From the NCBI GenBank assembly GCA_015488775.1, contig WFNF01000035.1, positions 1 to 59,147 of the forward strand: a stretch of DNA of 59,147 nucleotides. Direction: 5' to 3'. The notes under the pieces were generated by a model. The model was not told the origin of the DNA, searched no databases, and saw nothing but the letters and a program-made list of their open reading frames with translations. The translations under genes and the position numbers were made by a program. This document shows positions 20,824-36,875 of the stretch, piece after piece (the first letter of the stretch is position 1; each line of letters opens with the position of its first letter). Source of the DNA: Helicobacteraceae bacterium (GTDB lineage: Bacteria > Campylobacterota > Campylobacteria > Campylobacterales > Sulfurimonadaceae).

Positions 20824-21019
20824 TATTTATAGTAAAATCACCAAATTTTTCACTTAAAGTGAAAGTGTGCTTTTTACAGAACTCTTTATTCATCATCTCA
20901 AAAAGTTCATTTGCTTTTTTAGATGCTTCCTCTTTTGAGTCGAACTCTGCATTTGGGTTTAAACCCCTTTTTAAAAAGCAACTACACTCATTATTAACTT
21001 TAACTCTATACTTCGCCAT
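20816..21019 (-). CDS. Small conserved-looking protein at the end of the chemosensory operon
   Basis: 67 residues, unrecognised. It opens MAKYRVKVNNECSCFLKRG and has three Cys (two as CSC near the N-terminus, one in EFCKKH), a helical middle (SKEEASKKANELFEMMNKEF) and a beta end. AAAGG lies 8 bases before the ATG. It begins 17 bases after the response-regulator stop on the same strand, so it is probably cotranscribed with the chemosensory genes. Its stop overlaps the convergent alkC stop by 8 bases. The reading is preferred over the opposite-strand frame because of its ribosome site and amphipathic composition. No function can be given. Confidence 0.65.
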   Translation of the reverse strand: MAKYRVKVNNECSCFLKRGLNPNAEFDSKEEASKKANELFEMMNKEFCKKHTFTLSEKFGDFTINII

Positions 21020-21036
21020 AACAGTAACCTTTATTT

Positions 21037-22344
21037 TTAAAAATTAAATATATCATCTAATTCACCAGTATTACTCTCATCCTCACCATTGATCATAGAA
21101 GATATCATACTAGAGTTTGCAACTATAGTGTCATTCATAAAATCTATAGATGGCGCTCCATCATGAAAAATCATCCTATTCCAAGTAGCTAAATCGTTTC
21201 CAAAAGCAGAACATAATGGACCAATAGATGTGGAGTTTTCTATAAATGTGTCACTATGTTCAAGTATGTTAGTAGAAAGAGAACTTAATGCAGATGAGAT
21301 ATCGTAAGTTTCAGTATATATGGTAAGTAAACTACCTATACTATTCATTAACGATGACATCTCCTCTATATCATCATACTCAACACCACCACTACCAACT
21401 ATAAGTAAAAGAGAATTAAGTTTAGATATATAATCATTAAGCTCATTTTGATCATTAACATCCATAAAATCAAAAACTTCTAAATGTTCAACTGAAGCTT
21501 TAAAATCTACACTAGTAGTATTTTCAACTTCAACACTTTGAGCAATCTCTTCACTTATAGGTTCTATTACCTCCTCTACTACACTAATCTCCTTACTTAG
21601 AACAAAAGAGAGTAAATTATCTTTATGTTTATACTCACCCTTAAAAGCATTTTTAGCCGTTACAAGTCTTACGAAAGTTGGTTCAATAATCTCTTTAGAT
21701 TTTAGAGTAAAAAATATCTTCTCTTCTGATTCTTCAACTACAATTGAAGCTTTTTGTTTTAGTTTTAATTCTAACTCACCAAAAGAGTAAAGTGTTCTAA
21801 CAACATCACTCAACCCATCATATTTATCATCATCATTTAAAAGATAATACTCCCAAAACTCAGACAATGCATCATCATTACCTATAAAAAAGATAAGATG
21901 TCTTTGAAAGATTTTATTTGTGTATAGATTAAAATGGGTAGAACTCTCTTTAGTATGTTTTCTAGAGTTTATAAGTTTTATATAATTTTCTATGCGAGAT
22001 AAAAATATATCTGAATTTATAGGTTTAGATATATAATCCTCAGCACCAGAGCTAAGTATCTGTTTTTGTCTTTGAGCATCATCAACAGCACTAACAGCAA
22101 TAATCATAAGTTTATCATCATACTCTCTTATAAGTTTAGTTGCTTCTATTCCATCCATCACAGGCATCATAATATCCATAAAAACTAAATCAAATTTCTT
22201 AGTTTTTACTATATCAACTGCTTCTTGACCATTAACAACTTCATCAATGTTAAATGCAACATCATTATCATCACTATAATCTTCTAATAGAAGGTTTATA
22301 ATCATTCTATTGTTTTTATTATCATCAACTATTAATATGTTCAT
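21037..22344 (-). CDS. Response regulator with N-terminal receiver and large uncharacterised output region
   Basis: 435 residues. The receiver domain (1-125) is complete: Asp7/Asp8, phospho-acceptor Asp57 in LVFMDIMMPVMDG, conserved Ser/Thr in IAVSAVD and Lys in YISKPI. The remaining 300 residues match no domain I know. They contain a stretch (about 125-235) suggestive of a mixed fold and an acidic, Ser-rich C-terminal half with helices near 290-400. The last residues, GELDDIFNF, resemble CheY-docking tails of CheZ and FliM. It overlaps the histidine kinase by 20 bases and is its likely partner. AAAGG precedes the ATG. The output could be protein-protein contact within the array, since no DNA-binding domain is evident. 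Confidence 0.85.
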   Translation of the reverse strand: MNILIVDDNKNNRMIINLLLEDYSDDNDVAFNIDEVVNGQEAVDIVKTKKFDLVFMDIMMPVMDGIEATKLIREYDDKLMIIAVSAVDDAQRQKQILSSGAEDYISKPINSDIFLSRIENYIKLINSRKHTKESSTHFNLYTNKIFQRHLIFFIGNDDALSEFWEYYLLNDDDKYDGLSDVVRTLYSFGELELKLKQKASIVVEESEEKIFFTLKSKEIIEPTFVRLVTAKNAFKGEYKHKDNLLSFVLSKEISVVEEVIEPISEEIAQSVEVENTTSVDFKASVEHLEVFDFMDVNDQNELNDYISKLNSLLLIVGSGGVEYDDIEEMSSLMNSIGSLLTIYTETYDISSALSSLSTNILEHSDTFIENSTSIGPLCSAFGNDLATWNRMIFHDGAPSIDFMNDTIVANSSMISSMINGEDESNTGELDDIFNF

Positions 22345-23836
22345 CTTTTACCTTTTCTAGTTTTACTTTTGCTCCACCTAAACTTGAGGTGTTATCTATG
22401 TTTATATCTATACCCATTAAAATTGACAACTCTTTTGCTATATATAAACCTACACCAACACCTGTTGATTCTCTAGTTAAAAAAGATTCATCATTTTGTT
22501 CAAAAAGAGCAAATAAGTTTTTAGACTCATCAACTCCAGCACCATCATCTTCAATTATAATAGAAAAATTATTTGAATTATCTTCTAGGGTGATTAAAAT
22601 TTTTAATTTAGCATTTTTGCACGCATTATCCATAACCTCACTAAAAATCATATCAAGTTTAGAATACTCTAAATATGAAAATACCTCTTTAACCTTATTG
22701 TTTATAACTAGTTCTTTTGAACAATGTGAAAATTTATCAACTACGCTAGTAAATACAGAAGAAACATCAATATTAGAGCTCTCTATCTCAACCATATCAT
22801 CTTTTAATTTAATAGCAAAAAGAACTTTCTCTATCATCTCCACCATGTCTGAGCCATTTTCTTCAATCAAGTTTAATTGAGTTAACATCTTCTCTTTTTT
22901 AGAAATATCAAGTTTATTTATAGTTTTACTAAGATGTGAAGAGAAGTTAATGATAGAGTTAAGAGGTGTTTTTAACTCATGATTAAAGATATTTATAAAA
23001 TTATCTTTTATTTTACTTATCTCTTCATTTTTGCTTTTTTGAGCTTTTAGTTTACTTAGTTTAAAGTTCATCTCTTTAATCTCTAACTCTCTAGTGATCA
23101 TCACACTTTTAGTTATATCTTCTAAAAAACTTATATATTCTATTATCTCATCATCAGCATTATATATAGGAGAGATATTGATTTTTAAAACTTTTTCACC
23201 ATTATCATCTGCGTACTCTAGCTGAGTTGTAAACTTTTTACCAGCTTTTAGTCTTTCCCACATCAAATCAATCTCATCATGTTGAAACATAGGATTAAAT
23301 TTTGCATTAACCATCTTTTCAAAACTAATACCAAAAAAAGATGTAAGATTTTTATTTGCGTAAGTCACATCACCATCAAGGTTGTGTTTAGATATCATAT
23401 AAATATCTTCAATAACATCATTAATTCTTGAGATATTATTAGAGATATCATACATTTTAGTTTTAGATATTTTTTCTAAAATCTCAATCAGGACATTTGC
23501 ATTTATTGGCTTATTTATGTAAAAATCAACACCAAATTCTATAAGATGTTTAACATCACTTAGAGTATATTTATCTAACAAAACAACAAACATAGCATTT
23601 GGATTTAGAGCTTTTATTTTTTGAAAAAGATTTATTATATCTATATGTTCTGTTTTATTAGAGATTATATAAACATCACTTTTAGACTCTTTTATCTTGT
23701 TTAACATAGTAAGTATATTTTCAAAAACACTAATTTTATCACTAACACTACTAAGTATAGATGTTAGTTTTTTAATTACTTTATCATCATGATCATATAA
23801 AACAAAAGATAAATTAGCGTCTATTAGCTCTTTCAT
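22325..23836 (-). CDS. Soluble histidine kinase: pseudo-receiver, PAS, HisKA, HATPase
   Basis: 503 residues with no membrane segment. Residues 1-125 have a receiver fold (YDHDD start, Lys109 in YINKPI), but the phospho-acceptor position is Asn60 (VYIISN), so it is likely a pseudo-receiver. A PAS domain follows at about 140-250 (GDVTYANKNLTSFFGISFEKM). The HisKA box is FNHELKTPLNS with His286. The HATPase domain has N-box MDNACKNAK, G1 DDGAGVD and G2 TGVGVGLYIAKEL. It starts with the ParA-like stop (ATGA overlap) and runs into the response regulator. It is a cytoplasmic kinase, perhaps reading CheY-like or PAS signals of the same array. Confidence 0.9.
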   Translation of the reverse strand: MKELIDANLSFVLYDHDDKVIKKLTSILSSVSDKISVFENILTMLNKIKESKSDVYIISNKTEHIDIINLFQKIKALNPNAMFVVLLDKYTLSDVKHLIEFGVDFYINKPINANVLIEILEKISKTKMYDISNNISRINDVIEDIYMISKHNLDGDVTYANKNLTSFFGISFEKMVNAKFNPMFQHDEIDLMWERLKAGKKFTTQLEYADDNGEKVLKINISPIYNADDEIIEYISFLEDITKSVMITRELEIKEMNFKLSKLKAQKSKNEEISKIKDNFINIFNHELKTPLNSIINFSSHLSKTINKLDISKKEKMLTQLNLIEENGSDMVEMIEKVLFAIKLKDDMVEIESSNIDVSSVFTSVVDKFSHCSKELVINNKVKEVFSYLEYSKLDMIFSEVMDNACKNAKLKILITLEDNSNNFSIIIEDDGAGVDESKNLFALFEQNDESFLTRESTGVGVGLYIAKELSILMGIDINIDNTSSLGGAKVKLEKVKDEHINS

Positions 23837-24570
23837 GAAATCCTCTTAATTAAATCGAGAGTAAATTTTTTGTAATCTTTTTGACCTTTAGAGCGTTTAG
23901 AGTCTAACACTAAAGGTAAAGCACTCTCAAACTGAGAAGCTAACTTGATGTCAACACCTATGGGACTCATAACTTTTTCATCCCCATAAGCATCTCTAAC
24001 TTTTTGAACAGACACCTGATGCTCATTAATATGTGGATTATACATAACAGGCAACATATAAACCTCTGCAACTTCTCTTTTAGATGAAGTTTGGTAAATC
24101 GCTCTAACCATCTGATTTACAGCAACAACGCCCAAATGATGTGGAACAAAAGGGATAACTATAGTATCTGCAACCTCTAAAGCATTTTTTAAAAGTGCGT
24201 CAAATGTTGGAGCAGTATCTATGATTACATAATCAAAAAAATCTGCGATTTTCTCTTTTTTAAATCTATTTTTAAGGACACCTCTAAGATCAGAGTACTC
24301 ATAAACATCAAAAAAAGATAAAGCTGGTGAAACAGTTAAATTTTCACTTACACTATGTAAAAAAGTTTCACTTAGGTTACTTCCTAAAAATACAGAATGA
24401 GCCCCATTCTTCTCTGCTATATCAACTCCAACACCTAAAGTAGCATGACCTTGTGTATCTAAATCTATTAAAAGGACTGAACTATCTTTAGCTAACTCAC
24501 TAGCTAAAGATACAGCGGTAGTACTTTTAGCGCTACCACCCTTTCTATTACTAACAACAATACACTTCAA
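23833..24570 (-). CDS. ParA/MinD-like ATPase of the chemosensory cluster (ParC-like)
   Basis: 245 residues. The deviant Walker A is KGGSAKST (Lys10 signature, Lys15), Walker A'/B is LLIDLDTQGHAT, and switch II is VIIDTAPTFDA. It differs from the chromosome-partitioning Soj in this window (KGGVGKTT) by having Ala before the catalytic Lys. No ParB-like gene is adjacent. Known ParA homologues in chemotaxis loci (ParC in Vibrio, PpfA in Rhodobacter) position receptor arrays, and this is the likely role. The start is TTG at 24570, with GGGAG 6 bases upstream. It is located between the STAS gene and the kinase. Confidence 0.88.
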   Translation of the reverse strand: MKCIVVSNRKGGSAKSTTAVSLASELAKDSSVLLIDLDTQGHATLGVGVDIAEKNGAHSVFLGSNLSETFLHSVSENLTVSPALSFFDVYEYSDLRGVLKNRFKKEKIADFFDYVIIDTAPTFDALLKNALEVADTIVIPFVPHHLGVVAVNQMVRAIYQTSSKREVAEVYMLPVMYNPHINEHQVSVQKVRDAYGDEKVMSPIGVDIKLASQFESALPLVLDSKRSKGQKDYKKFTLDLIKRIS

Positions 24571-24596
24571 AAAATTCTCCCTTTAGTTGAGGTTAG

Positions 24597-24848
24597 TTAA
24601 ACAACAAACCCCTCTATCACTTTTTTATACATAAGATTGTTTGATGGTAATACAAACTCACAACCATACATCTTTTTATAAGCTAATATTACTTGTAAAA
24701 TACTTAGATGTACATCATCACAAGCCGAAAAATCAAATTTTATTAAATTTGGCTCATTTTTTTGTAAAAAATCTCTAAGATTTTTAACCTCATCCTCATA
24801 AACTATACTTGTTAAAACAACATTTACCCCATCATACTCTAAAGCCAT
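24597..24848 (-). CDS. STAS-domain protein of the chemosensory cluster
   Basis: 83 residues, one STAS-like fold: beta strands GVNVVLTSIVY and LIKFDFSACD, then HLSILQVILAYKKM as the first helix and CEFVLPSN as the next strand. STAS proteins act as phospho-switchable binding partners. A Ser sits at the usual switch position (HLSIL, about Ser49). It lies between the second CheW-CZB gene and the ParA-like gene, all closely spaced, and AGGAG precedes the ATG. It could be a partner of the adjacent histidine kinase or the ATPase, but no kinase/phosphatase of the anti-sigma type is encoded nearby. Confidence 0.7.
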   Translation of the reverse strand: MALEYDGVNVVLTSIVYEDEVKNLRDFLQKNEPNLIKFDFSACDDVHLSILQVILAYKKMYGCEFVLPSNNLMYKKVIEGFVV

Positions 24849-24857
24849 AATATTCTC

Positions 24858-25625
24858 CTATTTTTGTGGTAATTTAATCTCTTTTATAACATTAACCAAC
24901 TCACCATCTAACTCTATAACCCCATTTAACTCAAGGTACTCACTTACTACATTATCATCAGAAGATTTTTGTATAACGTTTTCATCAAGATGGGCTATAT
25001 CAACTATGCTATCTACTTTTATAGCAAAGTCCGCTCCATTATAATGGTACAAAAGTAACTTTTGTAAAGATGCTGCTACTGTATCAAACTCAGCTATAAA
25101 AAGATCTATGCTAGCTATAGTTTTATGATAAATCTGTTTTATCCTTACATCAAAATCTTTTTTAGCTGCTTCTTTATCTGTTTTTGCCATCTCTAAAACA
25201 GCAGTAGCAGAGTTATGTAGAGCTTTATGGTTTGCGTTTAGATCTTTTAAGATGTTAGATACATTATCATCATAAGATGTAAAACCATCTAACCACTTTC
25301 CAAGTTGACACATATGTGGATTTGTTGTTTTAGAAAATGGGTGATCATTATAAATAGCATCTTCTAGTGCATCAATCCAAGCTACATGTTGTTTTTTTAA
25401 ATCATCAAAAAGAACCAACATCTCATCATCATAAGTTACTAAACCCATCATCTTTCTTAAGTTTACAACCTTTATAACTCTTGACTCATATGACATCATC
25501 CCATCTACATACTCATGTGCACTTGGTATATCTGTAAGTTGTGGAGTTTGTATAATCCTTTGAACCTTCTCTATCTCTATAGCATAAACACTATGAGCAA
25601 GTTTAAATATTACAAAATCTACCAT
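24858..25625 (-). CDS. CheW protein interrupted by a CZB zinc-binding domain (copy 1)
   Basis: 255 residues. Residues 1-64 are the first half of a CheW domain (FKLAHSVYAIEIEKVQRII, VIKVVNLRKMMGL). Residues about 70-190 are a helical CZB domain with the four expected zinc ligands: His80, Cys106 in HMCQLGKW, His133 and His137 in HKALH. Residues 191-255 resume CheW (YNGADFAIKVDSIVDI, YLELNGVIELDGELVNVI). CZB domains bind zinc tightly and respond to zinc or hypochlorous acid in known receptors and cyclases. Here the sensor is built into the coupling protein. It starts 2 bases after the paralogous copy 2 stop. Confidence 0.9.
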   Translation of the reverse strand: MVDFVIFKLAHSVYAIEIEKVQRIIQTPQLTDIPSAHEYVDGMMSYESRVIKVVNLRKMMGLVTYDDEMLVLFDDLKKQHVAWIDALEDAIYNDHPFSKTTNPHMCQLGKWLDGFTSYDDNVSNILKDLNANHKALHNSATAVLEMAKTDKEAAKKDFDVRIKQIYHKTIASIDLFIAEFDTVAASLQKLLLYHYNGADFAIKVDSIVDIAHLDENVIQKSSDDNVVSEYLELNGVIELDGELVNVIKEIKLPQK

Positions 25626-25627
25626 AG

Positions 25628-26392
25628 TTAAGCCTTTATCTTGATTTTTTCCACTACTGTTCGAAGTTTATCTTTAACCTCAAAAACACCATCTATCTCT
25701 AGGTATCTACCATTAAATTCTAAAGACTTATCTCTTTTAATAATATTTTCATCTATATGCACTATATCTTCTATCTCATCAACCTTAAGAGCAAAAATCT
25801 CATCACCCTCACCCAACATTAAAATCTTTTGAGATTCATTAGCAACTTGGTCTGATAAAATCTGCATCTTATCTAAATAAGATATAGTGTTTGTATATAT
25901 CTCTTTTACACTATTTTCACACCATTCTATAGCACTGTTTTTATCTATCTTTTTTTTATCAAGAACGGTAATGGCACTTTTATGTAGATTTTTATGATGT
26001 TTATCTAACTCTACTAAAACATTAATAACTTCATTATCATAAGAGCTGAAGTTATCTATCCACTTACCTAAATTACACATATGTGGATTTGTTGTTTTAG
26101 AAAATGCTACATCATTATGAACACTATCGCTTAAAGAATCAAGCCAAGCTTTATGTTGAGCTTTTAAATCATCAAACATATTGTGAATTTTATCTATATA
26201 ACTCTCTTTAGATATCATCTTTCTAAAAGAAGCAACCTCTACTACTTTATCTTCATAGTTTATAATCCCATCAATAACTTTACTTTTAGAGTTTGATGGT
26301 GTTACATCACCAAGATTTACTATACGATTAACATAATCTAAATCTAGTGCATAGTGTAAATCTTCTATGCTAAAAAGTAAAAACGATTTCAT
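25628..26392 (-). CDS. CheW protein interrupted by a CZB zinc-binding domain (copy 2)
   Basis: 254 residues, a clear tandem paralogue of the next gene with identical ligand spacing: His80, Cys106 (HMCNLGKW), His133 and His137 (HKNLH). CheW halves flank it at 1-64 (FSIEDLHYALDLDYVNRIV, VVEVASFRKMI) and about 191-254 (GDEIFALKVDEIEDI). The shared block FSKTTNPHMC is the most conserved part of the pair. The ATG overlaps the cheA stop (TAATG), so translation is coupled to the kinase. The two copies could tune CheA coupling by zinc occupancy or thiol oxidation, which is inference from the family. Confidence 0.9.
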   Translation of the reverse strand: MKSFLLFSIEDLHYALDLDYVNRIVNLGDVTPSNSKSKVIDGIINYEDKVVEVASFRKMISKESYIDKIHNMFDDLKAQHKAWLDSLSDSVHNDVAFSKTTNPHMCNLGKWIDNFSSYDNEVINVLVELDKHHKNLHKSAITVLDKKKIDKNSAIEWCENSVKEIYTNTISYLDKMQILSDQVANESQKILMLGEGDEIFALKVDEIEDIVHIDENIIKRDKSLEFNGRYLEIDGVFEVKDKLRTVVEKIKIKA

Positions 26393-29094
26393 TATGATGC
26401 TTCTTCAACTTTGATTTTAATCTCATGAGCTAAACCAAGCATCCCTAAAGGATCTAAAACCATAATTATTTGTCCATTACCAAGTAAAGCAGTTCCACTA
26501 AATAATGGATGTGAATCTAAAACACCCTCTAAAGGTTTTTGAACAACATCAAGTTGCCCTAAAAGTTCATTTACAACAACTGCTAAAAGGTTTCCTTTTA
26601 TATTTAGAACAACTATAGGTAAGTTTTCATCATCTAAAGAGTCTTTATCTAACATAGACTCAACAAAAAGAAGAGGTATAACCTCACCTCTAAGATATAT
26701 AAACTGTTCACCATGAAGTAACTCTATATCTTTTTTAGAGATTTTAACAGTTTCACTTACACTTTCCATAGGGAAACCATAATGAATTTCACTAAGAGAT
26801 ACATGAAGTAAAGATGTAACAGCTAAAGATACAGGTATAGTAAGAGTTATAGTAGTTCCCTTACCAATACTAGTACTTATAGATATAGTTCCACCAAAAC
26901 CCTCTATAGATTTTCTAACAACATCCATACCAACACCACGACCACTATATTCACTAATCTCATCAGCAGTTGATAAACCAGGTAACATAACTAATTCAGC
27001 TTTTTGGTTATCACTTAAAGCATCAATCTGATCAAGTGTTAGAAGCTCTTTTTCTAAAACTTTTTGTATAACTTTTTCAACATTTATACCAGCACCATCA
27101 TCTTTAATCTCTATAATTATCTTATCTGATTGTGAGTAAGCTTTTAACTCTATAAGACCAACAGGATCTTTCTCAGCTTCTTTTCTAACCTCTGGAAGTT
27201 CTATACCATGATCAAGAGAGTTTCTCATAATATGTATCATAGGATCAGCCATCATCTCTATAATATTTTTATCTAGCTTAGTCTCTCCACCATCCATTTT
27301 TAAAGTAACTTTTTTATTTAGGTTTTTAGAGATATCACGAACTAGTTTTGGGTACCTATCAAAAACATAAGATATAGGTAACATTCTCATACCCATGATT
27401 AAATCTTGTAGTTGTTCAGATAAACGATTTATAAAAGTATATTTTTCTAAAATGGCTCTTTTTATACTCTCTGAGTTCATGTTATGTACACCATCAGCTA
27501 AGTATGGAAGTGAGTTTTTAGCTACAAGAAGTTCTCCAACTATATTCATAAGATGGTCAATAGAATCTTGGTCTATTTTAACTGTTTTACCTATTACATT
27601 TTTTTTGTGAACCTCTTTTTCTGCTGTAGGTTTTTTAGCAGGTGTATCTTTTACAACTTCAGCTTTTACTTCAGGGGTAGGTTCAACTTTTGGAGCTTCA
27701 ACTACTTTTTCCTCTTTAGCTATAGGTTCATCTTTAACTACAACATCTTCGATAACTTCTTTTTCCTCTTTAACAACTTCATCTTCAACTACACTATTTT
27801 CATCTATAAGACCAAGAGCTTTATTAATATATTGCTTAATTTCATCAATACTTTCAAAATTTTCTGGCATATCACTATCGTAAGCTCTAGCAAAAGAGAG
27901 CATAGAGATAATTCTATCTTTATCCTCTTTCACATCATTTGATTCTATAGCTTTTAACTGTTGTCTAAACATCTCCATTAAAGCTTCATTAACATTTTTA
28001 TCAGCAACTTTAGTGCCTGAGTCTGAATTAGATTTTGAAGCTACTGAACTTAAACTATCTACAAAATAATTTAATTTATTTAGGTTATTAACATCAATTG
28101 CTTCAGCAATTATTTTTAATCTTAATAATTTTTTATATGCAATGCTAGTGCTATTGATCAACTCTAAAGTTTTAGATATAGACTCAATAAACAAATCTTG
28201 ATTTTTATCTTTAATATGTGTCATCAAATCATTTTTTAACTCTATTAAGATATCTAAGTCTTCAATCTCTACATCCATATCAAGTAAAAGATTTGCATCT
28301 AGTTTTAAAAATCTCAATTCATCCATAAAGTTAAAAAGTGAATCTTCTATCTCTTCATATGAAGCATATATAAACGCTGTAATATCTACACATAGATTTA
28401 ATCCCTCTTCATCATCAAGTCCACTTAATATATTTTTTGCACCATCTTCACTCATTGTTGTATTTATATATATAACACTATCACCTAAAAGTGAAAGGGT
28501 ATAGATTGGGTCATTACCAAAAACCATACAAGAGGTGTCTATATCAAAATTTACTGCAAAAAGATGTTTATCGTTTATAGTATTTTCATCTAGTTTAATA
28601 TCTTCAAAGTGTAGGGTAAAAGCATCTGATTTTAAAGTTTTTATATCCATATTTATAATAGATTTTGGATCATCAACTAGCTGAAGTGGACAACTCCATT
28701 CAACTTTTTTATCATCTTTACCCATAATGTCATTTAAAGATTTTACAATTGATTTTTTTGTATCTTCATCTGCGTCAACTATATCTTCACTATCTTCAGC
28801 CGCTTCAATAAGATTTAGAACCTCATCAAATGCATCATAAAGTACATCAACCATCTCAGGTTTAAACTCTATTTTTGAAGCTCTCAACATATCTAAAAGA
28901 TCTTCGGCAGAATGTGTAATATCTTTTACAGACTCAAAACCTACAATTCCAGAACCACCTTTTAGTGTATGTGCTGCTCTAAAAACAGAATTTAAAAGCT
29001 CAGGGTCATCTCCACCAATATCACTTAAGTTCTGATCAATAAATGCTAAATTTTCTCGTGCTTCTTGTAAAAATTGTTCTAATAATGGGTTCAT
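26392..29094 (-). CDS. cheA: CheA-type chemotaxis histidine kinase, long form without receiver
   Basis: 900 residues against 654 in E. coli. The N-terminal Hpt domain has AAHTLKGGSG with His42. Residues about 130-430 match no domain I recognise and are mixed alpha/beta. An acidic Lys/Glu/Pro linker (about 430-500) leads to the P3 dimerisation helix (DQDSIDHLMNIVGELL-like, in VKIDQDSIDHLMNIVGELL), the kinase domain (HIMRNSLDHGIE, DDGAGIN, SGRGVGMDVV) and the P5 CheW-like domain. There is no C-terminal receiver, unlike the CheA-Y usual in Campylobacterota flagellar chemotaxis. AAGGAA at 29106-29101 sits 6 bases before the ATG at 29094, ruling out the longer frame from 29130. Confidence 0.95.
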   Translation of the reverse strand: MNPLLEQFLQEARENLAFIDQNLSDIGGDDPELLNSVFRAAHTLKGGSGIVGFESVKDITHSAEDLLDMLRASKIEFKPEMVDVLYDAFDEVLNLIEAAEDSEDIVDADEDTKKSIVKSLNDIMGKDDKKVEWSCPLQLVDDPKSIINMDIKTLKSDAFTLHFEDIKLDENTINDKHLFAVNFDIDTSCMVFGNDPIYTLSLLGDSVIYINTTMSEDGAKNILSGLDDEEGLNLCVDITAFIYASYEEIEDSLFNFMDELRFLKLDANLLLDMDVEIEDLDILIELKNDLMTHIKDKNQDLFIESISKTLELINSTSIAYKKLLRLKIIAEAIDVNNLNKLNYFVDSLSSVASKSNSDSGTKVADKNVNEALMEMFRQQLKAIESNDVKEDKDRIISMLSFARAYDSDMPENFESIDEIKQYINKALGLIDENSVVEDEVVKEEKEVIEDVVVKDEPIAKEEKVVEAPKVEPTPEVKAEVVKDTPAKKPTAEKEVHKKNVIGKTVKIDQDSIDHLMNIVGELLVAKNSLPYLADGVHNMNSESIKRAILEKYTFINRLSEQLQDLIMGMRMLPISYVFDRYPKLVRDISKNLNKKVTLKMDGGETKLDKNIIEMMADPMIHIMRNSLDHGIELPEVRKEAEKDPVGLIELKAYSQSDKIIIEIKDDGAGINVEKVIQKVLEKELLTLDQIDALSDNQKAELVMLPGLSTADEISEYSGRGVGMDVVRKSIEGFGGTISISTSIGKGTTITLTIPVSLAVTSLLHVSLSEIHYGFPMESVSETVKISKKDIELLHGEQFIYLRGEVIPLLFVESMLDKDSLDDENLPIVVLNIKGNLLAVVVNELLGQLDVVQKPLEGVLDSHPLFSGTALLGNGQIIMVLDPLGMLGLAHEIKIKVEEAS

Positions 29095-29104
29095 AATATC
29101 TTCC

Positions 29105-29470
29105 TTACTTTGTGCAAAAAATGTCCACAAAACCTTTTAAATAATCTGGTTTTATTGGTTTAGTTTCAAAAAGGTTTGCTCCAACATTATATGCTTGGAT
29201 TTTATCATCCTCTTTTGCTTGAGTTGTAATCATAATAATTGGTGTATTTTTAAATTTATCATTTTTTCTTATCTCTTGGACAAATGAATAACCATCCATA
29301 ATAGGCATATTAACATCAACTAGATACATATCAATATCATTATCTAGTGACTTTTCTAATGCTTCCATCCCGTTTTCTGCTTCAACAACCTCAATACCAA
29401 ACCCTTTTAAAAGAGAACCATGATACGACCTTACAGTTTTTGAATCATCTACTACCATTACCTTAGCCAT
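29105..29470 (-). CDS. CheY-like single-domain response regulator (first of two, adjacent to cheA)
   Basis: 121 residues, one complete receiver: Asp8/Asp9, phospho-acceptor Asp52 in LVDVNMPIMDG, Thr in MITTQA and Lys in ETKPIK. It lies 10 bases upstream of cheA with AGGAG before its ATG. The Phe/Tyr switch residue of flagellar CheY is not obvious, since the segment after the Thr reads GANLFETKP. It may therefore not bind the flagellar motor and instead serve as a phosphate sink or an array regulator. Confidence 0.9.
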   Translation of the reverse strand: MAKVMVVDDSKTVRSYHGSLLKGFGIEVVEAENGMEALEKSLDNDIDMYLVDVNMPIMDGYSFVQEIRKNDKFKNTPIIMITTQAKEDDKIQAYNVGANLFETKPIKPDYLKGFVDIFCTK

Positions 29471-29479
29471 AATTCTCTC

Positions 29480-29869
29480 CTAAAAAAATAATATTTCATC
29501 TTCATTGTCATGCTTTGTTTTACCAGAAAATGAGTCTCGTTTATCTTGAGCTATACTTATAGCGCTACTAAGTTTTTCTTGTAGTTTTGCCATAGATTCA
29601 ATAGCTAAAGACTCATCTTCACTATATGCATACTCAAATCTTTGAATACTTTGTTCAACACATTCAATAGCATCAATAGTAGCCGAAAGTTGTTGAGATA
29701 TAATATCTTGATACTGCAAAGCTTCAGCTGCATCATCATCAAGAGTACATCCACTTTTCTCTATAAAAGTTGCAAGTTTTAATGTTGCTTTTTTAGAGAG
29801 TTCTATAGTATCTGACTCAACTGACTTAATGTGTTTAAGTAGTTCATTTACCGATTTAAGTAATAACAT
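29480..29869 (-). CDS. Short CheZ-like protein, candidate CheY phosphatase
   Basis: 129 residues, wholly helical. LQYQDIISQQL carries Asp55 and Gln59, the D-x3-Q pattern and context of E. coli CheZ (FQDLTGQ, Asp143/Gln147), whose Gln activates water for CheY-P hydrolysis. It ends in an acidic aromatic tail, EDEILFF, like the CheY-binding C-terminus of CheZ. At about 60 percent of CheZ length it would form a minimal four-helix dimer. GGAG at 29879-29876 is 6 bases before the ATG at 29869, so this start is chosen over an ATG at 29881. It lies between two cheY genes. The call is by motif and context, without a search. Confidence 0.65.
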   Translation of the reverse strand: MLLLKSVNELLKHIKSVESDTIELSKKATLKLATFIEKSGCTLDDDAAEALQYQDIISQQLSATIDAIECVEQSIQRFEYAYSEDESLAIESMAKLQEKLSSAISIAQDKRDSFSGKTKHDNEDEILFF

Positions 29870-29882
29870 ATTTATCTCCATT

Positions 29883-30260
29883 TTATGCTGGTAATCTCAA
29901 TACTCTTGAAATTGCTGCTTTTAGTTGTGGTGCACTAAATGGCTTAACTATCCAGCCTGTTAATCCTAAGGCTTTACCTTGTTGCTTAACCTCATCTTTT
30001 GTCTCTGTAGTCAACATAAGAACAGGTGTTCTTTTTGTAATATCAAGCTCTCTTAGAGCTTTTAAAAACTCAAAACCATTCATAACAGGCATATTTAAAT
30101 CTGTAATAATCAAATCTGGTTTAAGAGAGCCAGATTGGATTTCAGCTAAAGCATCTTGTGCTTTTATATAAAATTTACTCTCTATAGGCATCTTAGCTGT
30201 TACAACTCTTGTTGAAGCTAGCGCAGTTTCTGAATCATCTACAAATAATACTAATGGCAT
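29883..30260 (-). CDS. CheY-like single-domain response regulator (second copy)
   Basis: 125 residues, a single receiver with Asp8/Asp9, phospho-acceptor Asp54 (IITDLNMPVMNG), Thr in LMLTTET and Lys in IVKPFS. Trp occupies the position next to the Lys loop (GWIVKPF). This receiver is closer to chemotaxis CheY proteins with a C-terminal KPFSAPQLKAAI helix than its sister at 29105-29470. It follows a 124-base gap with strong hairpins after cheR, and AAGGA precedes the ATG. It is probably the main substrate of CheA and of the adjacent CheZ-like protein, although which CheY is dephosphorylated is not evident. Confidence 0.9.
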   Translation of the reverse strand: MPLVLFVDDSETALASTRVVTAKMPIESKFYIKAQDALAEIQSGSLKPDLIITDLNMPVMNGFEFLKALRELDITKRTPVLMLTTETKDEVKQQGKALGLTGWIVKPFSAPQLKAAISRVLRLPA

Positions 30261-30287
30261 TTTTTATCCTTTTTTTATCATAATAAC

Positions 30288-30380
30288 ATTGGCAACGAAC
30301 CAATACAACCCTCAAACTACATAAAATTATGTACTTAAAAGGGTATTACTAAAAACTATAATAGCTTTTAATAATACCCT
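30288..30380 (-). other. three hairpins in the cheR-cheY gap
   Basis: The 124-base gap holds a long hairpin at 30340-30380: AGGGTATTA pairs with TAATACCCT, and inside it five more pairs, a mismatch and three pairs close on a TAA loop (about 17 bp). Next to it are TACATAA/TTATGTA (30318-30333) and ATTGG/CCAAT (30288-30304). No U-run follows on the minus strand. Partial termination or mRNA processing that separates expression of upstream and downstream genes is plausible. Confidence 0.6.
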
Positions 30381-30384
30381 CTAT

Positions 30385-31215
30385 CTACTTTTGGTAGATT
30401 AGAGTATCTCCTACTTTTTTTGCTTTAAAAACAGAAACTATGCGAGACATATACTCTGCGTGTCCTAAAAGTATAAAACCGTTAGGATTTAACATATCAT
30501 AAAAATTCATTGCAACCTCTTTTCTACTTGCATCATCAAAATATATCAACATATTTCTTGAAAAGATTACATCAAATTTACCAAGTTTTCTCATCTCAGA
30601 CTTATCAAAGATATTTGCAACTTGAAAATCAACGGTTCCTATTAAATCTTCACTTAACTTATAACTAAACTTCTTTTTTTCAAACCATTGAGATAAAATA
30701 TTTTTAGGTATAGCGTGAATACTCCTTTGAGAGTATTCTGATTTTTTTGCTTTTTCTATAACAGTTGAGTCTATATCTATACCAATAACCTCTATATCGC
30801 GTTTCTCAACAATCTCACCCTCTTCTATAATATGTAGGATTATAGAGTAAGGTTCTTCACCAGTTGAACAAGGTGCAGATAGTATTCTTATAGGCTCGCC
30901 TGCTCTTTTAGTTTTATCTATCTCGTGTAAAACATGATCAACTAAAACTTCAAACTGGTTTTTTTCTCTAAAAAAATAAGTTTCGTTAACAGTAACAGCG
31001 TTCATTAACTCTTGAAACTCAGAGCTATCTTTATCTTCAAATCTTAATTTAAAAAAATATTTTCTAAAATTATCAAAACCTAACTTTGAAGATCTTTCAT
31101 CAATATATTTTGATATTTTGTCAAAATGTTTATCATACTCCAAATATATACCACTTTTTCTATAGATATATTCACCCATTTTTTCAAAATTTTCTTTAGA
31201 TAAAAAGTTGCTCAT
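30385..31215 (-). CDS. cheR: Chemoreceptor glutamate methyltransferase CheR
   Basis: 276 residues. An N-terminal helical domain (1-75) precedes a SAM-dependent methyltransferase domain. The block NAVTVNETYFFREKNQFEVL (about 68-87) is the CheR signature, followed by RILSAPCSTGEEPYSI (SAM-binding), VIGIDID and FDVIFSRNMLIYFDD. It methylates receptor glutamates for adaptation, here most likely on the soluble two-tip receptor of the operon. AAGGGA precedes the ATG, 2 bases after the HEAT-repeat stop. No CheD is present in the cluster. Confidence 0.95.
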   Translation of the reverse strand: MSNFLSKENFEKMGEYIYRKSGIYLEYDKHFDKISKYIDERSSKLGFDNFRKYFFKLRFEDKDSSEFQELMNAVTVNETYFFREKNQFEVLVDHVLHEIDKTKRAGEPIRILSAPCSTGEEPYSIILHIIEEGEIVEKRDIEVIGIDIDSTVIEKAKKSEYSQRSIHAIPKNILSQWFEKKKFSYKLSEDLIGTVDFQVANIFDKSEMRKLGKFDVIFSRNMLIYFDDASRKEVAMNFYDMLNPNGFILLGHAEYMSRIVSVFKAKKVGDTLIYQK

Positions 31216-31217
31216 AA

Positions 31218-31841
31218 TTATCCCTTAATCATTTTGATAGCATTATCTACACTAAAAACTACATACGGATCGTTATCAAATCTAGTTTTTAATGAATCTA
31301 AAAGTTTTATATCTTCCTCTTGACCTATCTCTGACATATAATCAACAGCAGTCATCGCAACATTAATATCATCCTCTTTTTCAAGTAGTTCGATCAACAT
31401 ATCTCTTGACTCACTAAAATTTACATCACCTAAAACATTTATAGCGAAAATCCTTAAATCTCTATCATCACCTATCATAAACTTTACAATGTAGTACTTT
31501 ATAGCTTCACCATAATCTCTAAGTATAGAAATACCAAGATTTCTAGTAAAGGCATTGTCTAACTTTAAAAGATTCATAACCTCTTCAATTGGTGCGTCTT
31601 CTGTTGGCATATTTGAAAGTATTGCAGCTATTCTTGACTCAAACTCTTTAGTAGTTTTTTTATCTATAAGCTTTTTTACAAGAACATCTGGACCACCATC
31701 GAACTTAGCAATCTGATCTAATGCAGAAGACTTTTCATCAAAATCATCAGACTCTCTAAAAAATTCTACCGCTTCCTCTAAAGAATCAAAAGTTACTAAC
31801 TCTTCAATAGCTTGTGATTTATGTTTTTTTACTAATGCCAT
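31218..31841 (-). CDS. HEAT-repeat protein of the chemosensory cluster
   Basis: 207 residues of alpha-solenoid repeats, visible as recurring paired helices: NAFTRNLGISILRDYGE, RDLRIFAINVLGDVN, DINVAMTAVDYMSEIGQ (about 30-residue spacing). HEAT proteins are scaffolds and carry no catalysis. Its first seven codons' worth of sequence, MALVKK, is identical to the start of the chemoreceptor encoded upstream at 34266-36149, with matching DNA. It sits between cheB and cheR, so it may dock the modification enzymes or CheA onto the array. I do not know a named orthologue. Confidence 0.8.
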   Translation of the reverse strand: MALVKKHKSQAIEELVTFDSLEEAVEFFRESDDFDEKSSALDQIAKFDGGPDVLVKKLIDKKTTKEFESRIAAILSNMPTEDAPIEEVMNLLKLDNAFTRNLGISILRDYGEAIKYYIVKFMIGDDRDLRIFAINVLGDVNFSESRDMLIELLEKEDDINVAMTAVDYMSEIGQEEDIKLLDSLKTRFDNDPYVVFSVDNAIKMIKG

Positions 31842-31849
31842 AATATTTC

Positions 31850-32902
31850 CTATTTAAAAGTTGCTATTTTTTTTAAAATACGATTAAATGGTAATTGCTC
31901 TTGCACACCACCACGATCAAATGCTTCTTTAGGCATACCATAAACTGTTGCACTCTCTTCGCTTTCACCTAAAGTATAACCACCATCTTTTTTTATCTCT
32001 ACCATACCATCTGCGCCATCATCACCAATACCTGTTAAAAGTACGCCAATAATTGCACTACCACCAAATACTTGGACTCCACTTTTAAACATCTCATCTA
32101 CACTAGGTTTAAAAAAACCTCTAGTTTCATTAGACTCTCTAATAACAATTTTCCCTGAAACTTTTTTTGCAAAGTGTAGATGGACTCCACCTCTTGCTAA
32201 ATAAATTTTGGAAGCAACTATCTCCATGTTTGATTTAGTATGTACAACTTCTAGGCTACTTACCTTGTTTAATCTTGCTGCAAAAGCTTCAGTAAATTGT
32301 TCAGGCATATGTTGAACAATAACTACAGGGTATGGGTAACAAGGGTTTATTGATGAACATATCTGCTCAATCAAACCTGGACCTCCAGTTGATGCGCCTA
32401 TAAGTAATACCTTCTCAAAATCTTCATTACATTTTTGCATCTCATTTTGTGTATTAGGCGCGCGTCGTCTTTCTCTAACCCTAGGTTGAGAAAGTTTAGA
32501 TTTTATACGTCTTTTAGAGATTCTACTTAAAGATTTAACTTTCATTAAAATCTCTTCTTTGTTTACATCGTCTCCAACTTGCATAGTTCCAGGCTTTGCA
32601 ACATAATCCATTGCACCTAATTCTAAAGCTTCTACAGTTGTAGTAGCATCAGCACTTGTTAATGAACTTACCATTAAAACTGCACTAGGATTTTTTTCCA
32701 TAATCTCTTTTAAGGCAGTTAGACCATCCATAACAGGCATATTAACGTCCATTGTTATAACATCATAATCTGTAGCACAAGCCATATCAACAGCTATTTT
32801 TCCATTTTTTGCTATATCTATCTCAAAGCCAAGTTCAGAAATTAAACTTGTAAGTTGTTTTCTAACTAATGCAGAATCATCTACTATAAGTACTTTTTTC
32901 AT
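31850..32902 (-). CDS. cheB: Chemoreceptor glutamate methylesterase CheB
   Basis: 350 residues: a receiver (1-125) with Asp8/Asp9, phospho-acceptor Asp52 (VITMDVNMPVMDG), Ser/Thr in MVSSLTS and Lys in VAKPGT, then an Arg-rich linker and the methylesterase domain. The catalytic triad is visible as Ser in LIGASTGGPG, His in VIVQHMPEQF and Asp in GIGDDGADGM. It removes methyl groups and deamidates receptor glutamines when phosphorylated by CheA. It starts in the stop of the triple-CheW gene (ATGA overlap), with AAGGA before the ATG. Confidence 0.96.
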   Translation of the reverse strand: MKKVLIVDDSALVRKQLTSLISELGFEIDIAKNGKIAVDMACATDYDVITMDVNMPVMDGLTALKEIMEKNPSAVLMVSSLTSADATTTVEALELGAMDYVAKPGTMQVGDDVNKEEILMKVKSLSRISKRRIKSKLSQPRVRERRRAPNTQNEMQKCNEDFEKVLLIGASTGGPGLIEQICSSINPCYPYPVVIVQHMPEQFTEAFAARLNKVSSLEVVHTKSNMEIVASKIYLARGGVHLHFAKKVSGKIVIRESNETRGFFKPSVDEMFKSGVQVFGGSAIIGVLLTGIGDDGADGMVEIKKDGGYTLGESEESATVYGMPKEAFDRGGVQEQLPFNRILKKIATFK

Positions 32903-34263
32903 ACTTGTCCTTTTGAATAAACTTCATTAATATTTAATAGCATTACTAATCTCTCTCCATCTTCAAGATGAAGAACATTAGTAAATAGTGCATCATCATC
33001 ACTTGAAGCTTTTAGTTCATTTTTATATATATTCATAACATCATTTACATGATCAACATAAAAACCTATTTTTTTGTCATCATTTGTACAAACAACAATC
33101 TTTTTATCTTCGCCAAGTTCTAATTTTTTTCCTAGACGATTATGTAAAGAACCTATCGGCACAACCTGACCTCTAATGTTTATAAGTCCTCTAATACCCT
33201 CTGGAGCTTGAGCGATGCTAATATCTTTTGTATAATCAATAATCTCATCAATCTCATCAATATTAAAAGCGTATTCCTCATCAGCAATTTTAAATGTTAA
33301 AACTTCAAGTACAACATCTTGAGCCTCTTTTTTTTCTTCATGGTTAGTATTTGAATCTAAAAATTTTCTATTTTCACCAAGCCAGTCTAAAAAAACATAC
33401 TCATCTAGCAAAGATATAAGTTGATCATCATCATGAACTATTCCAGATATTTTTTTATCTTGAAAATGTTGAGGTAGAGTGTCTATATTTTTTTTATTAA
33501 AATCTTTAATATTTAAAATTTCATCAACTTTTACACCAAATACATCATCGCCAATTTTAATTATAATAACTCTATTTTTATCACAAGAGTACTCTTTAAA
33601 ACCATAAAATGTTCTAAGATCCATTATCGCTCTTAAATCACCTCTTAGTGAGGTAATACCTATAAGCTCTTTACTAGATCCTGCAACTGCTGTAATATTT
33701 TGTGGAACTACAATAATCTCATTTAAGTATTCAATATTTATTGAAAAAAGTTCTTCACCCATTTTAAAAAGTAAAAATCTTTCATACTCATCTTGATCAA
33801 CAATTTCATCTTCAGCACTAATATTATCTTTTACTGTATCTACATCTAAAGGTTTAAAGTCTATCTCTTTAAATAAAAGCTCTAAACTAATAAGTTGTAT
33901 AATCTCATCTTCAGTTTTAATAATAGCTACAATAGCATCTTCACTATCTTCAATTCTCTCTACATCTTTAGAGTCAACCTCAATAGAGTCAATTACCTCT
34001 TCAACATACAAAGAAAAGCTAGAACCATCTAAAGACAAAACTCTATTTTTATCATTTGCTTCACTAATAGAGTTCTCTAAAAGACAATTTACACTAATTA
34101 CAGTAGCAATATCTCCAGAGACTGCACTAATACCTAAAATAGATTTAGGTGTTAGCACAATTTTAGTTATTTCAGGTACTCTTAGTATCTGATTGATATG
34201 TTTTGTTTCTATTGCGTACTTCACACCATCTTGTGAAATAACTAAAATCTCTAAATTTTCCAT
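32899..34263 (-). CDS. Triple-domain CheW coupling protein
   Basis: 454 residues comprising three tandem CheW-like domains: about 1-130 (VISQDGVKYAIETKHINQIL), 160-300 (FKMGEELFSINIEYLNEII, LIGITSLRGDLRAIMDLR) and 312-452 (FKIADEEYAFNIDEIDEII, IRGLINIRGQVVPIGSLHN). Domains 2 and 3 keep the RG(D/Q) motif of receptor- and CheA-binding CheW, while domain 1 is weaker (ISAVSGDIATVISV). Multi-CheW proteins can bridge several CheA or receptor units in a baseplate. It lies 2 bases after the receptor gene and overlaps cheB by 4. Confidence 0.9.
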   Translation of the reverse strand: MENLEILVISQDGVKYAIETKHINQILRVPEITKIVLTPKSILGISAVSGDIATVISVNCLLENSISEANDKNRVLSLDGSSFSLYVEEVIDSIEVDSKDVERIEDSEDAIVAIIKTEDEIIQLISLELLFKEIDFKPLDVDTVKDNISAEDEIVDQDEYERFLLFKMGEELFSINIEYLNEIIVVPQNITAVAGSSKELIGITSLRGDLRAIMDLRTFYGFKEYSCDKNRVIIIKIGDDVFGVKVDEILNIKDFNKKNIDTLPQHFQDKKISGIVHDDDQLISLLDEYVFLDWLGENRKFLDSNTNHEEKKEAQDVVLEVLTFKIADEEYAFNIDEIDEIIDYTKDISIAQAPEGIRGLINIRGQVVPIGSLHNRLGKKLELGEDKKIVVCTNDDKKIGFYVDHVNDVMNIYKNELKASSDDDALFTNVLHLEDGERLVMLLNINEVYSKGQV

Positions 34264-34265
34264 AA

Positions 34266-36149
34266 TTAACCTTGTTGTAACTCATCTGCCATAACAGCTA
34301 ACTCTTCAACACTCTCACCAACATGTGCAATAGTCTCTATAATTAACTCACTAGCTTTTCTTGACTCCATAGCATTTCTTGCGCTAAGTTCAACTGCTTT
34401 TTGAATCTCAGATATACCTATAAGAACTTGATTAAGCCCTTCCAAGTTTTGATCATTCATAGCCTTTAAACCTGTATATCTATCTAGTAAATCTACAAGC
34501 ATATTTGTAATCTTGTCTATCTCATTTAAAAGTAAATCTATCTGAACAATTTCATTTTTTTGAGTACCAAGTAAAGATAACCAATCCGTCTCAACTGTAT
34601 CTATCTCAGAATTCATAGATTCAATAGTATCATTAATCTTTTCAGTGTTAGCTTCTGAATCTTTAGCTAGATTTCTAATATCTGCACTAACAACTGCAAA
34701 TCCCTTACCAAAATCACCTGCACGAGCAGCCTCAATAGAGCCACTAATTGCAAGCATATTTAGTTGTATAATTGAGTTAGATATATTTGAAACCGTTTTA
34801 TTTACATTTTTTGTCTCTTTGTTAATTAAAACCAATTCATTACTAGCACCAGTACCCTCACTAACTGAGCTGTCTAATTCACCTTTAATCTCATTTACTA
34901 CATTTTTAATACTAACAAAAGATATTTTTAAAAGATCAAAATTACGTCTAGCTATCTCTATAAGTTTATCTATATCTTTAGCATTATCTAGACCCTCTTC
35001 AACCATCTCTTTGTTATTAAGGGCACTTTGGTTAGTTTCATGAGAAGATTTTTCTATCATATTTAAGGCTGAAGTAACATCTTCAAGTGAGTTTTGAATA
35101 TCATCAGTTGCACTTGAAACATTATCTGCTAGTGTTGCTATATCTTCAGCAGTTTTACTTGTGTCTGTTGAGTATTTTAACTCTTCTGCTTGATTTGAAA
35201 GTTCTTTTATGTCATCTTCTGCTTGAGATAGTGCATTTGATTGTATCTCTATAGAGTTTAACGTTTTTTCAACTGAAAGTGCGATTTCACTTGATGCCTT
35301 AGCAATATCACTAGATCCACTGTTTACTTTTCCTATAAAATTTTCAAGATTTTGTGTATACAGTTTTACAGATTTAGCAGCTTCAATAGAGTAGATAGCG
35401 ATTTTACTAAGTTCAAGCATTTTGTCACTTAAATTATTACCCTTATCACCTGTCTCTTTAATAATACTAGAAGTACCAACAATACTTGTAATAATATTAT
35501 CTATACTTCCTTGTATTTTATTTACAAGTTCAGAGATAAACTCAGCATTTTTTTCAGATTCACCAGCTAAAGCACGAGTTTCATCAGCAACAACTGCAAA
35601 ACCTTTACCATGTTCTTTAGCACGACTAGCTTCTATAGCAGCATTAAGAGCGAGTAAGTTTGTTTGATCAGCAATCTTTGCAATAAATCCAACAGCTTCT
35701 CCAATATTTTCAGATGAAGCTTTTAACTCTTCTGATTTTTTAGAAGATTCATCAGCAACAATAACAGATTTTTTCATTCTCTCAACAGAAAAGTTAATCG
35801 TATCAACAGAAGATAAAATACTCTCACCAGCACTAAGAGTTGAATTTTCAACAGCATCTATTGATGTACCCATTCTACTTATGTTAGAATTGATTGAAGA
35901 AACATTTTCTAAAGCTTGTTCACTTGCTCCTGAGTTCTCCTCAGCAGCAGTTGCAATTTGTTCCATAGAAGATTTTAATTGTTCTATTGCACTAACACTT
36001 TCTTGAGCATTATCTAAAATAGTTACAGATACACCTGCAATACTCTCAGAAATTTGTTGTTGTTTTGCTAAAGTTCTTTGTCTTCTTTTATCTGAACTAC
36101 CACCACTATTTGCACTTGGTGCTGATCCAGTTTTTTTTACTAATGCCAT
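34266..36149 (-). CDS. Soluble chemoreceptor with two signalling hairpins (DosM-like)
   Basis: 627 residues, no membrane segment and no ligand-binding domain. Two methyl-accepting signalling tips are visible: tip 1 at about 155-196 (IADQTNLLALNAAIEASRAK, HGKGFAVVADETRALA) and tip 2 at about 458-497 (QLNMLAISGSIEAARAGDFG, KGFAVVSADIRNLA). Each tip is near the centre of roughly 280 residues of heptad coiled coil, so the protein looks like two receptor hairpins joined base to base. Vibrio cholerae DosM has two signalling domains and stabilises cytoplasmic double-layer arrays; this is the closest known precedent. It follows the PAS gene by 9 bases, with AGGAG before the ATG. Confidence 0.92.
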   Translation of the reverse strand: MALVKKTGSAPSANSGGSSDKRRQRTLAKQQQISESIAGVSVTILDNAQESVSAIEQLKSSMEQIATAAEENSGASEQALENVSSINSNISRMGTSIDAVENSTLSAGESILSSVDTINFSVERMKKSVIVADESSKKSEELKASSENIGEAVGFIAKIADQTNLLALNAAIEASRAKEHGKGFAVVADETRALAGESEKNAEFISELVNKIQGSIDNIITSIVGTSSIIKETGDKGNNLSDKMLELSKIAIYSIEAAKSVKLYTQNLENFIGKVNSGSSDIAKASSEIALSVEKTLNSIEIQSNALSQAEDDIKELSNQAEELKYSTDTSKTAEDIATLADNVSSATDDIQNSLEDVTSALNMIEKSSHETNQSALNNKEMVEEGLDNAKDIDKLIEIARRNFDLLKISFVSIKNVVNEIKGELDSSVSEGTGASNELVLINKETKNVNKTVSNISNSIIQLNMLAISGSIEAARAGDFGKGFAVVSADIRNLAKDSEANTEKINDTIESMNSEIDTVETDWLSLLGTQKNEIVQIDLLLNEIDKITNMLVDLLDRYTGLKAMNDQNLEGLNQVLIGISEIQKAVELSARNAMESRKASELIIETIAHVGESVEELAVMADELQQG

Positions 36150-36158
36150 AATTTTCTC

Positions 36159-36575
36159 CTAATCTAAAGTTGCATAAAGCTCTTCAGCTTTTTTAATATC
36201 TTCACGTGAAGGTTTAACTCTTATTGATACATACTTAGTTTGTCCACTTTTATCAATAGATTTTAATACAGTAGCATACACCCAATAAAATCCTCCACCT
36301 TTTCTAGTATTTTTCACATAACCCGTCCAAAAACCTTTTGATTGAACATCATCCCATAAAGATTTAAAAGCTGCTCTAGGCATCTCTGGATGTCTTACAA
36401 CATTGTGAGGTTGTCCAATCAAATCATCCTTAGTCATATTTGCTACATTAAGGAAAGAGTCACTAGCGTAAGTTACTACCCCTTTTTCATCAGTTTCAGA
36501 AAGAAGATAAAGATCATTGTATAAAACCTCACCATCCTCCATAAAAGTTAAAGTTTCGTTTTTACTTTCAGACAT
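36159..36575 (-). CDS. Stand-alone Aer-type PAS sensor protein
   Basis: 138 residues, essentially one PAS domain of the Aer kind. The segment QPHNVVRHPEMPRAAFKSLW (about 76-95) followed by GFWTGYVKNTRKGGGFYWV is the FAD-binding core of aerotaxis receptors. There is no HAMP, membrane or signalling domain, so the sensor is physically separated from the receptor encoded next. It is the first gene of the operon, with GGAGG 9 bases before the ATG. FAD redox state as the input is inferred from the family. Confidence 0.88.
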   Translation of the reverse strand: MSESKNETLTFMEDGEVLYNDLYLLSETDEKGVVTYASDSFLNVANMTKDDLIGQPHNVVRHPEMPRAAFKSLWDDVQSKGFWTGYVKNTRKGGGFYWVYATVLKSIDKSGQTKYVSIRVKPSREDIKKAEELYATLD

Positions 36576-36605: not shown

Positions 36606-36875
36606 AAAAAGATGATATCGTGATAAAACTGAAAGAACATTAAAAAAAACAAACTTAGTTTATTTTATTACAAAAAGATAGGTTTGGTGCATTATTGAGA
36701 TAATTTGTAACATAAAAATAGCACTAATGCCTAAAAATAGGTGTACTAGCTATGGAAAGAATTAATATAAAATAATTTGTTTAAGCTTAAAAAATTGATA
36801 AAATATTGGTTTTTTCAATAAAATCTAATTGTTGTGATAAAAAAGGGGATTAAAAGTTTGTTTTGAAGTAAGGTT

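Follow-up and report, generated by a model that had tools for sequence, protein, structure and literature searches.

The window analysed here is positions 1 to 59,147 of contig WFNF01000035.1, 59,147 nucleotides (nt), from a Helicobacteraceae bacterium of the Campylobacterota (assembly GCA_015488775.1), and between its positions 21037 and 36575 lie sixteen open reading frames (ORFs), all on the minus strand, whose products, judged from sequence, make up a chemosensory system of class F9. The original prediction had listed a PAS protein, a two-tip receptor, a triple CheW, CheB, a HEAT protein, CheR, two CheYs, a CheZ-like protein, CheA, two CheW-CZB proteins, a STAS protein, a ParA-like ATPase, a histidine kinase and a response regulator, and the families are largely confirmed by Pfam, which finds the PAS domain, two MCP-signal stretches, three CheW stretches, CheB, HEAT, CheR and two CheYs, then CheA (Hpt, dimer, ATPase and CheW domains), two CheW plus CZB proteins, ParA, histidine kinase and response regulator. 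Two labels have support of another kind. For the STAS-like protein the Pfam score (E 0.25) is below the cut-off, and it is the proteins in the same position in Leptospiraceae (2e-7) and Methylobacterium (1e-3) that match STAS; the CheZ-like protein matches no profile, and in nearly all relatives shown it has QD-x3-Q and a terminal EIEFF, the latter being DEILFF in the window. CheZ itself has a catalytic Asp/Gln pair and a CheY-binding tail, which these two motifs resemble. Also as predicted, hydropathy gives no convincing transmembrane segment in any protein of the operon, the borderline peaks falling within soluble domains of CheA and CheB; CheA has no receiver; and neither CheD nor CheV is encoded within the operon, a CheV gene being present elsewhere in the genome.

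Is this, then, an unclassified system? That is not supported. The signature of class F9 is a receptor with two tandem signalling domains (DosM) together with an adaptor that has three CheW domains (PMC9321776), and an array free of the membrane is the rule for the class (PMC9321776, PMC7534058); in Vibrio cholerae its arrays have been imaged and are cytoplasmic, double-layered and scaffolded by DosM (PMC7534058). The F9 cluster dosM-cheW3-cheB-cheR-cheA-cheY is present here, in an order that matches that of plasmid F9 operons, and, as F9 has already been reported from free-living Campylobacterota (PMC9239204), the assignment itself is not new. A tree of 32 CheAs, in which DosM-linked CheAs other than that of V. 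cholerae stand for F9, joins the window CheA and 23 other DosM-linked CheAs in one clade (support 96/96) that spans Campylobacterota, Alpha- and Betaproteobacteria, Leptospiraceae and Riflebacteria. E. coli CheA falls outside this clade, as does the receiver-bearing flagellar F3 CheA of the same genome. The latter is encoded at a separate locus beside CheV, FliG is also encoded in the genome, and the two F3 features, cheVAW order and a receiver on CheA, are missing from the operon. The inference that the system is cytoplasmic, and another than the flagellar one, is thus supported. With V. cholerae cluster I and, by gene content, Azospirillum brasilense Che2, the system shares DosM, triple CheW, CheA, CheB, CheR and CheY, coexistence with another, flagellar class, and a cytoplasmic array, here a predicted one. 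Beyond these the Campylobacterota version has a flavin PAS protein, the CheZ-like protein, a long response regulator and either CheW or CheW-CZB; of the other F9 operons only some have a linked parA, which this one has.

Features of the operon and its flanks (E, E-value; pLDDT, predicted local distance difference test; FAD, flavin adenine dinucleotide)
Feature	Position in window	Strand	Basis
Upstream element TT[T/C]AG-N10..14-TA[T/A]NNT	36612..36633	-	58 nt before first (PAS) start codon
Stand-alone PAS protein, Aer/CetB type, predicted FAD-binding	36159..36575	-	Aer PAS 8dik match; FAD-contact residues
DosM, soluble receptor with two signalling tips	34266..36149	-	two MCPsignal stretches, no HAMP, no transmembrane segment
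N-terminal tag MALVKK of DosM	36132..36149	-	kept across loci
CheW3, triple CheW	32899..34263	-	three CheW stretches, E 3e-67
CheB, receiver and methylesterase	31850..32902	-	Pfam
HEAT-repeat protein, between cheB and cheR	31218..31841	-	HEAT_2 E 6e-12; same position in alpha/beta F9 operons
N-terminal tag MALVKK of HEAT protein	31824..31841	-	kept across loci
CheR methyltransferase	30385..31215	-	E 2e-51
CheY1	29883..30260	-	receiver E 7e-21; W58 to L, K119 to A
CheZ-like phosphatase candidate	29480..29881	-	QD-x3-Q; terminal motif in relatives; no Pfam match
CheY2	29105..29470	-	receiver E 7e-27; W58 to V, K119 to F
CheA of the F9 clade, without receiver	26392..29094	-	Hpt, H-kinase_dim, HATPase, CheW; clade 96/96
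CheW with inserted CZB, copy 1	25628..26392 (CZB 25964-26155)	-	Pfam; alignment
CheW with inserted CZB, copy 2	24858..25625 (CZB 25197-25388)	-	model pLDDT 92; Foldseek; ligand conservation
STAS-like protein, phospho-Ser/Thr position lost	24597..24848	-	synteny with STAS_2 proteins; alignment
ParA-like ATPase	23833..24570	-	AAA_31 E 3e-29; Soj/ParA structures; Walker motif
Histidine kinase of receiver (no phospho-Asp), PAS, HisKA and HATPase domains	22325..23836	-	Pfam; alignment
Response regulator, 310-residue C-terminal part, end LDDIFNF	21037..22344	-	receiver E 5e-26
67-amino-acid (aa) ORF	20816..21019	-	17-nt gap after last of the sixteen genes; homologues in relatives

When named genomes were scanned, 75 Campylobacterota-type loci were found, and all twelve core genes are present in 51 of these (of Sulfurimonas/Sulfuricurvum type), with identical order in every one; conservation of gene order, on which the original prediction was staked, thus holds for twelve genes and not for the set of sixteen, in which the presence of the kinase and of a second CheW-CZB varies. 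Loci in complete genomes read PAS-DosM-CheW3-CheB-HEAT-CheR-CheY1-CheZ-like-CheY2-CheA-CheW-STAS-ParA-response regulator, and the window has beyond this order the second CheW-CZB and the histidine kinase, whose N-terminal receiver is without its phospho-aspartate and which in most relatives is not present after parA. The PAS gene adjoins rpsO in 45 of the Campylobacterota-type loci, and this adjacency and the shared order point to vertical inheritance within the Campylobacterota group. Within the taxonomic order as a whole DosM is unevenly spread, being present in 20 of 399 genomes and in 12 of 88 genera. It replaced CheW3 as survey probe: the latter is only about 38% identical between relatives, and in a sample of 150 genomes, in which DosM is rare, it detected no further genome at E 1e-40. 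The plasmid operons of alpha- and betaproteobacteria have DosM-CheW3-CheB-HEAT-CheR-CheY-CheA-STAS in common, with parA in two. Three loci (L040, L044, L070) have a permuted order in which CheY1-CheY2-CheA-CheW-STAS-ParA, preceded by HEAT-CheR where the contig reaches, comes before PAS-DosM-CheW3, and there is no CheZ-like gene. In three other Campylobacterota loci (L090, L093, L139) the F9 set looks partial, DosM-CheW3 being accompanied by at most a few other che genes; L093 lies on a short contig, and MGF is the start of both its DosM and its HEAT protein. On a Marinitoga plasmid (L099) a CheW-repeat protein that matches triple CheW lies beside two receptors and cyclic di-GMP genes; as a neighbouring receptor has a membrane-type N-terminus and no CheA is linked, this was rejected as a complete F9 operon.

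The intergenic gaps are from -20 to 26 nt throughout, other than that between cheR and the first cheY; this sole long gap, 124 nt (30261-30384), may hold an internal promoter. The ORF of cheA extends to a TTG at 29130, and the ATG at 29094 is the more likely start. The 67-aa ORF has homologues of 41-51% identity in the same place in several relatives and is probably the seventeenth and last gene of the operon. The element upstream of the PAS gene is promoter-like and conserved: it occurs in 27 of 45 upstream regions, nearly all at -51 to -62, where shuffles lead one to expect 4.8. It resembles neither sigma-54 nor sigma-28 sites, and a promoter of either type was rejected, with a sigma-54 site in 0 of 43 loci and a sigma-28-like one in 2 of the 43.

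By what route could signals enter a system whose receptor, DosM, has no recognised sensor domain? Redox or metal input had been proposed, and residues fitting it are present for both. The best PDB match of the PAS protein is the Aer PAS domain (8dik, E 5e-29), and among 73 PAS sequences the Aer FAD-contact residues H53, R57, H58, W70, N85 and R115 are kept in 72-73, position 60 being D or E and M69 being L throughout. Two of the three substitutions that stabilise FAD in Aer (28G and 99V) are native in the PAS protein, and CetB has all three (FAD residues and substitutions: PMC9668731, PMC2628428). With Aer, and with CetA/CetB of Campylobacter jejuni, there is thus a likeness in the FAD residues, and with CetA/CetB also in sensor and receptor being separate proteins; the difference is that the candidate receptor partner here, DosM, is soluble and has neither HAMP nor membrane region. 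Three other receptors of the genome (L004, L005, L010) are free of transmembrane segments by hydropathy, one of them having a CZB domain, and are candidate partners for DosM or for the F3 array.

The second putative input lies in the adaptors. The plain 143-aa CheW of relatives aligns to both flanks of the CZB domain in the window CheW-CZB, the model of which (pLDDT 92) has a helical insert between two beta halves, and with that model Foldseek recovers both CheW (2qdl) and the CZB domain of DgcZ (3t9o), so that by prediction the CZB domain is inserted within the CheW fold. The residues of a three-His, one-Cys zinc site are conserved in 44 sequences that were selected for the CZB cysteine motif (C106 invariant; H80, H133 and H137 at least 90%). 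Known CheW-CZB proteins likewise have CheW and CZB in one chain and the same ligands; here, by contrast, the CZB is modelled inside the CheW fold, and it is absent or degenerate in some relatives. Among the latter are CheW proteins (L031, L032, L037) with a CZB-like insert from which zinc ligands are lost, and because of such degenerate inserts zinc sensing would be an optional module.

Where the output goes is a question on which the two CheYs bear directly. Both keep the phosphorylation residues, and W58 and K119, the criteria for CheYs that bind FliM (PMC9321776), are absent from them in essentially all of about 60 relatives, so the output is probably not directly at the flagellar switch. 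That the operon is instead an accessory array feeding the flagellar motor in energy taxis, with CheY1, CheY2 or the F3 CheY acting on FliM, we regard as unlikely: the genome is that of a flagellated organism, as FliG indicates, the closest PAS relatives, Aer and CetB, serve energy taxis (PMC2628428), and 97% of surveyed F9 species have a complete flagellar gene set (PMC9321776), yet besides the missing FliM signature, deletion of the V. cholerae F9 CheA has no detectable phenotype under standard conditions (PMC7534058) and A. brasilense Che2, by gene content probably F9, is dispensable for chemotaxis (PMC8561660). The response regulator is 47-50% identical over its full length in four relatives, with its C-terminal approximately 310 residues conserved and ending LDDIF[DN]F. 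Its model (pLDDT 72) shows a receiver, then the order beta-alpha-alpha-beta-beta-alpha-beta-beta, plus a helical bundle, and the top fold match, the Rec-Bergerat protein LvrC of Leptospira, a putative anti-sigma factor (PMC13269768), suggests that the middle domain is Bergerat-like. The operon protein is longer than LvrC, with the extra helical bundle and the terminal LDDIF[DN]F, and no sequence similarity between the two was detected in the C-terminal part, for which profile searches of PDB and Pfam gave nothing convincing and no Bergerat or sigma-related match. That fold order and fold match, and the STAS gene within the operon, would accord with a partner switch in which, in response to the array, a regulator (a sigma factor, for instance) would be sequestered by STAS and the response regulator, the middle domain of the latter being perhaps RsbW-like. 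Against this, model confidence is modest in the middle region (pLDDT about 65-80), the fold-match E-value may derive mainly from the receiver, the sequence profiles are silent, ATP-binding motifs are not evident by eye and the STAS phospho-site is lost; a partner switch seems to us distinctly improbable.

The ParA-like ATPase is, by its structure matches, of Soj type; of 53 sequences, 52 carry KGGSAK[TS] and one KGGSGKS. The ParA at 53014-53793, which adjoins ParB, is a different protein. The cytoplasmic cluster of Rhodobacter sphaeroides is alike in having soluble receptor array genes with a linked ParA-like ATPase; it differs in its split CheA, not found here, and in that its receptor TlpT has one signalling domain where DosM has two. 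The N-terminus of TlpT is the partner of the ATPase PpfA (PMC3964821), and it is usually by basic, disordered N-termini that ParA proteins are activated (PMC7993993, PMC10241942). DosM and the HEAT protein, otherwise unrelated, begin in nearly all loci with the same hexapeptide pattern, MALxKK or more generally M-[AGPS]-[LIF]-[VIM]-[KR]-[KR], and the linker that comes next in DosM varies in both length and sequence; this tag does not appear to have been described previously. In its strict form it starts 110 of 1724 ORFs of the fetched loci, and outside the DosM class and a class of 195-215 aa, counted as HEAT on size alone, there are three, all Azospirillum DosMs. In the genome of the window the pattern, searched for with CGN arginine codons not covered, has eight matches, and those that are protein starts are DosM and HEAT only, the rest being in short frames or internal. 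A general translation-start effect was rejected, since the other genome matches start no protein and F9 operons on plasmids from other phyla have the tag as well. A strict bond to linked parA was also rejected, several operons without parA keeping the tag. In Leptospiraceae and Riflebacteria (L095-L097) DosM N-termini read GLSG[KR]xLxKP, like the GLGRGL motif of the window ParB (52169-53011).

What, then, might the tag bind? Tentatively, and with the odds against it, F9 arrays would have in it a dedicated docking tag by which DosM and HEAT meet one partner, most simply ParA, which would position the redox/zinc array as organelle-like cargo. That the tag serves to dock not ParA but CheB, CheR, CheW3 or CheA, whether as adaptation enzymes or as other core parts, with HEAT as competitor or carrier, is a serious possibility, if still short of an even chance. 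It accords with the DosM tag being kept where neither parA nor HEAT is linked (A. vitis and, in looser form, L136, L137 and L139) and with HEAT, where present, sitting between cheB and cheR or adjoining cheR; it has against it the general use of basic disordered N-termini to activate ParA and the direct TlpT-PpfA precedent cited above, and genomes with the tag and no linked parA could encode ParA elsewhere.

The interpretation that we consider probable is of a complete F9 system in which DosM and triple CheW would link two baseplates in a membrane-free double-layered array, with CheA as the F9-type kinase core, CheB and CheR for adaptation, and two CheYs with a candidate CheZ-type phosphatase. 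Since DosM itself is without a sensor domain, input would come from add-on sensors: the predicted FAD-binding PAS protein would act in trans on the receptor layer, as has been proposed for CetB on CetA, the CZB domains, predicted to bind zinc, would sense from the baseplate, and soluble receptors encoded elsewhere in the genome may contribute further, so that the array would monitor redox and zinc/thiol state. Positioning or partitioning of the array over the nucleoid would fall to the ParA-like ATPase, the part that PpfA has with the R. sphaeroides cytoplasmic cluster; output would be via CheY1, CheY2 and the multidomain response regulator; and MALxKK on DosM and HEAT would be a docking peptide for one shared partner, be it ParA or an F9 core component. 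Several points weigh against such an account: the array in this lineage is predicted from genes, and a demonstrated signal or output is known for no F9 system; the binding of FAD and of zinc is predicted from residues; the partner receptors of DosM are candidates only; and the tag is kept in operons that have no linked parA, so that its pairing with ParA is tentative.

F9 is a sporadically distributed class. New here are the FAD residues in a lone PAS protein, the predicted placing of CZB inside CheW, the CheYs without FliM signature and the tag common to DosM and HEAT, and the Campylobacterota operon supplies for each step a candidate: sensors of flavin type and, in the baseplate, of zinc; a phosphatase and a response regulator; an ATPase for positioning; and a docking tag common to two proteins.

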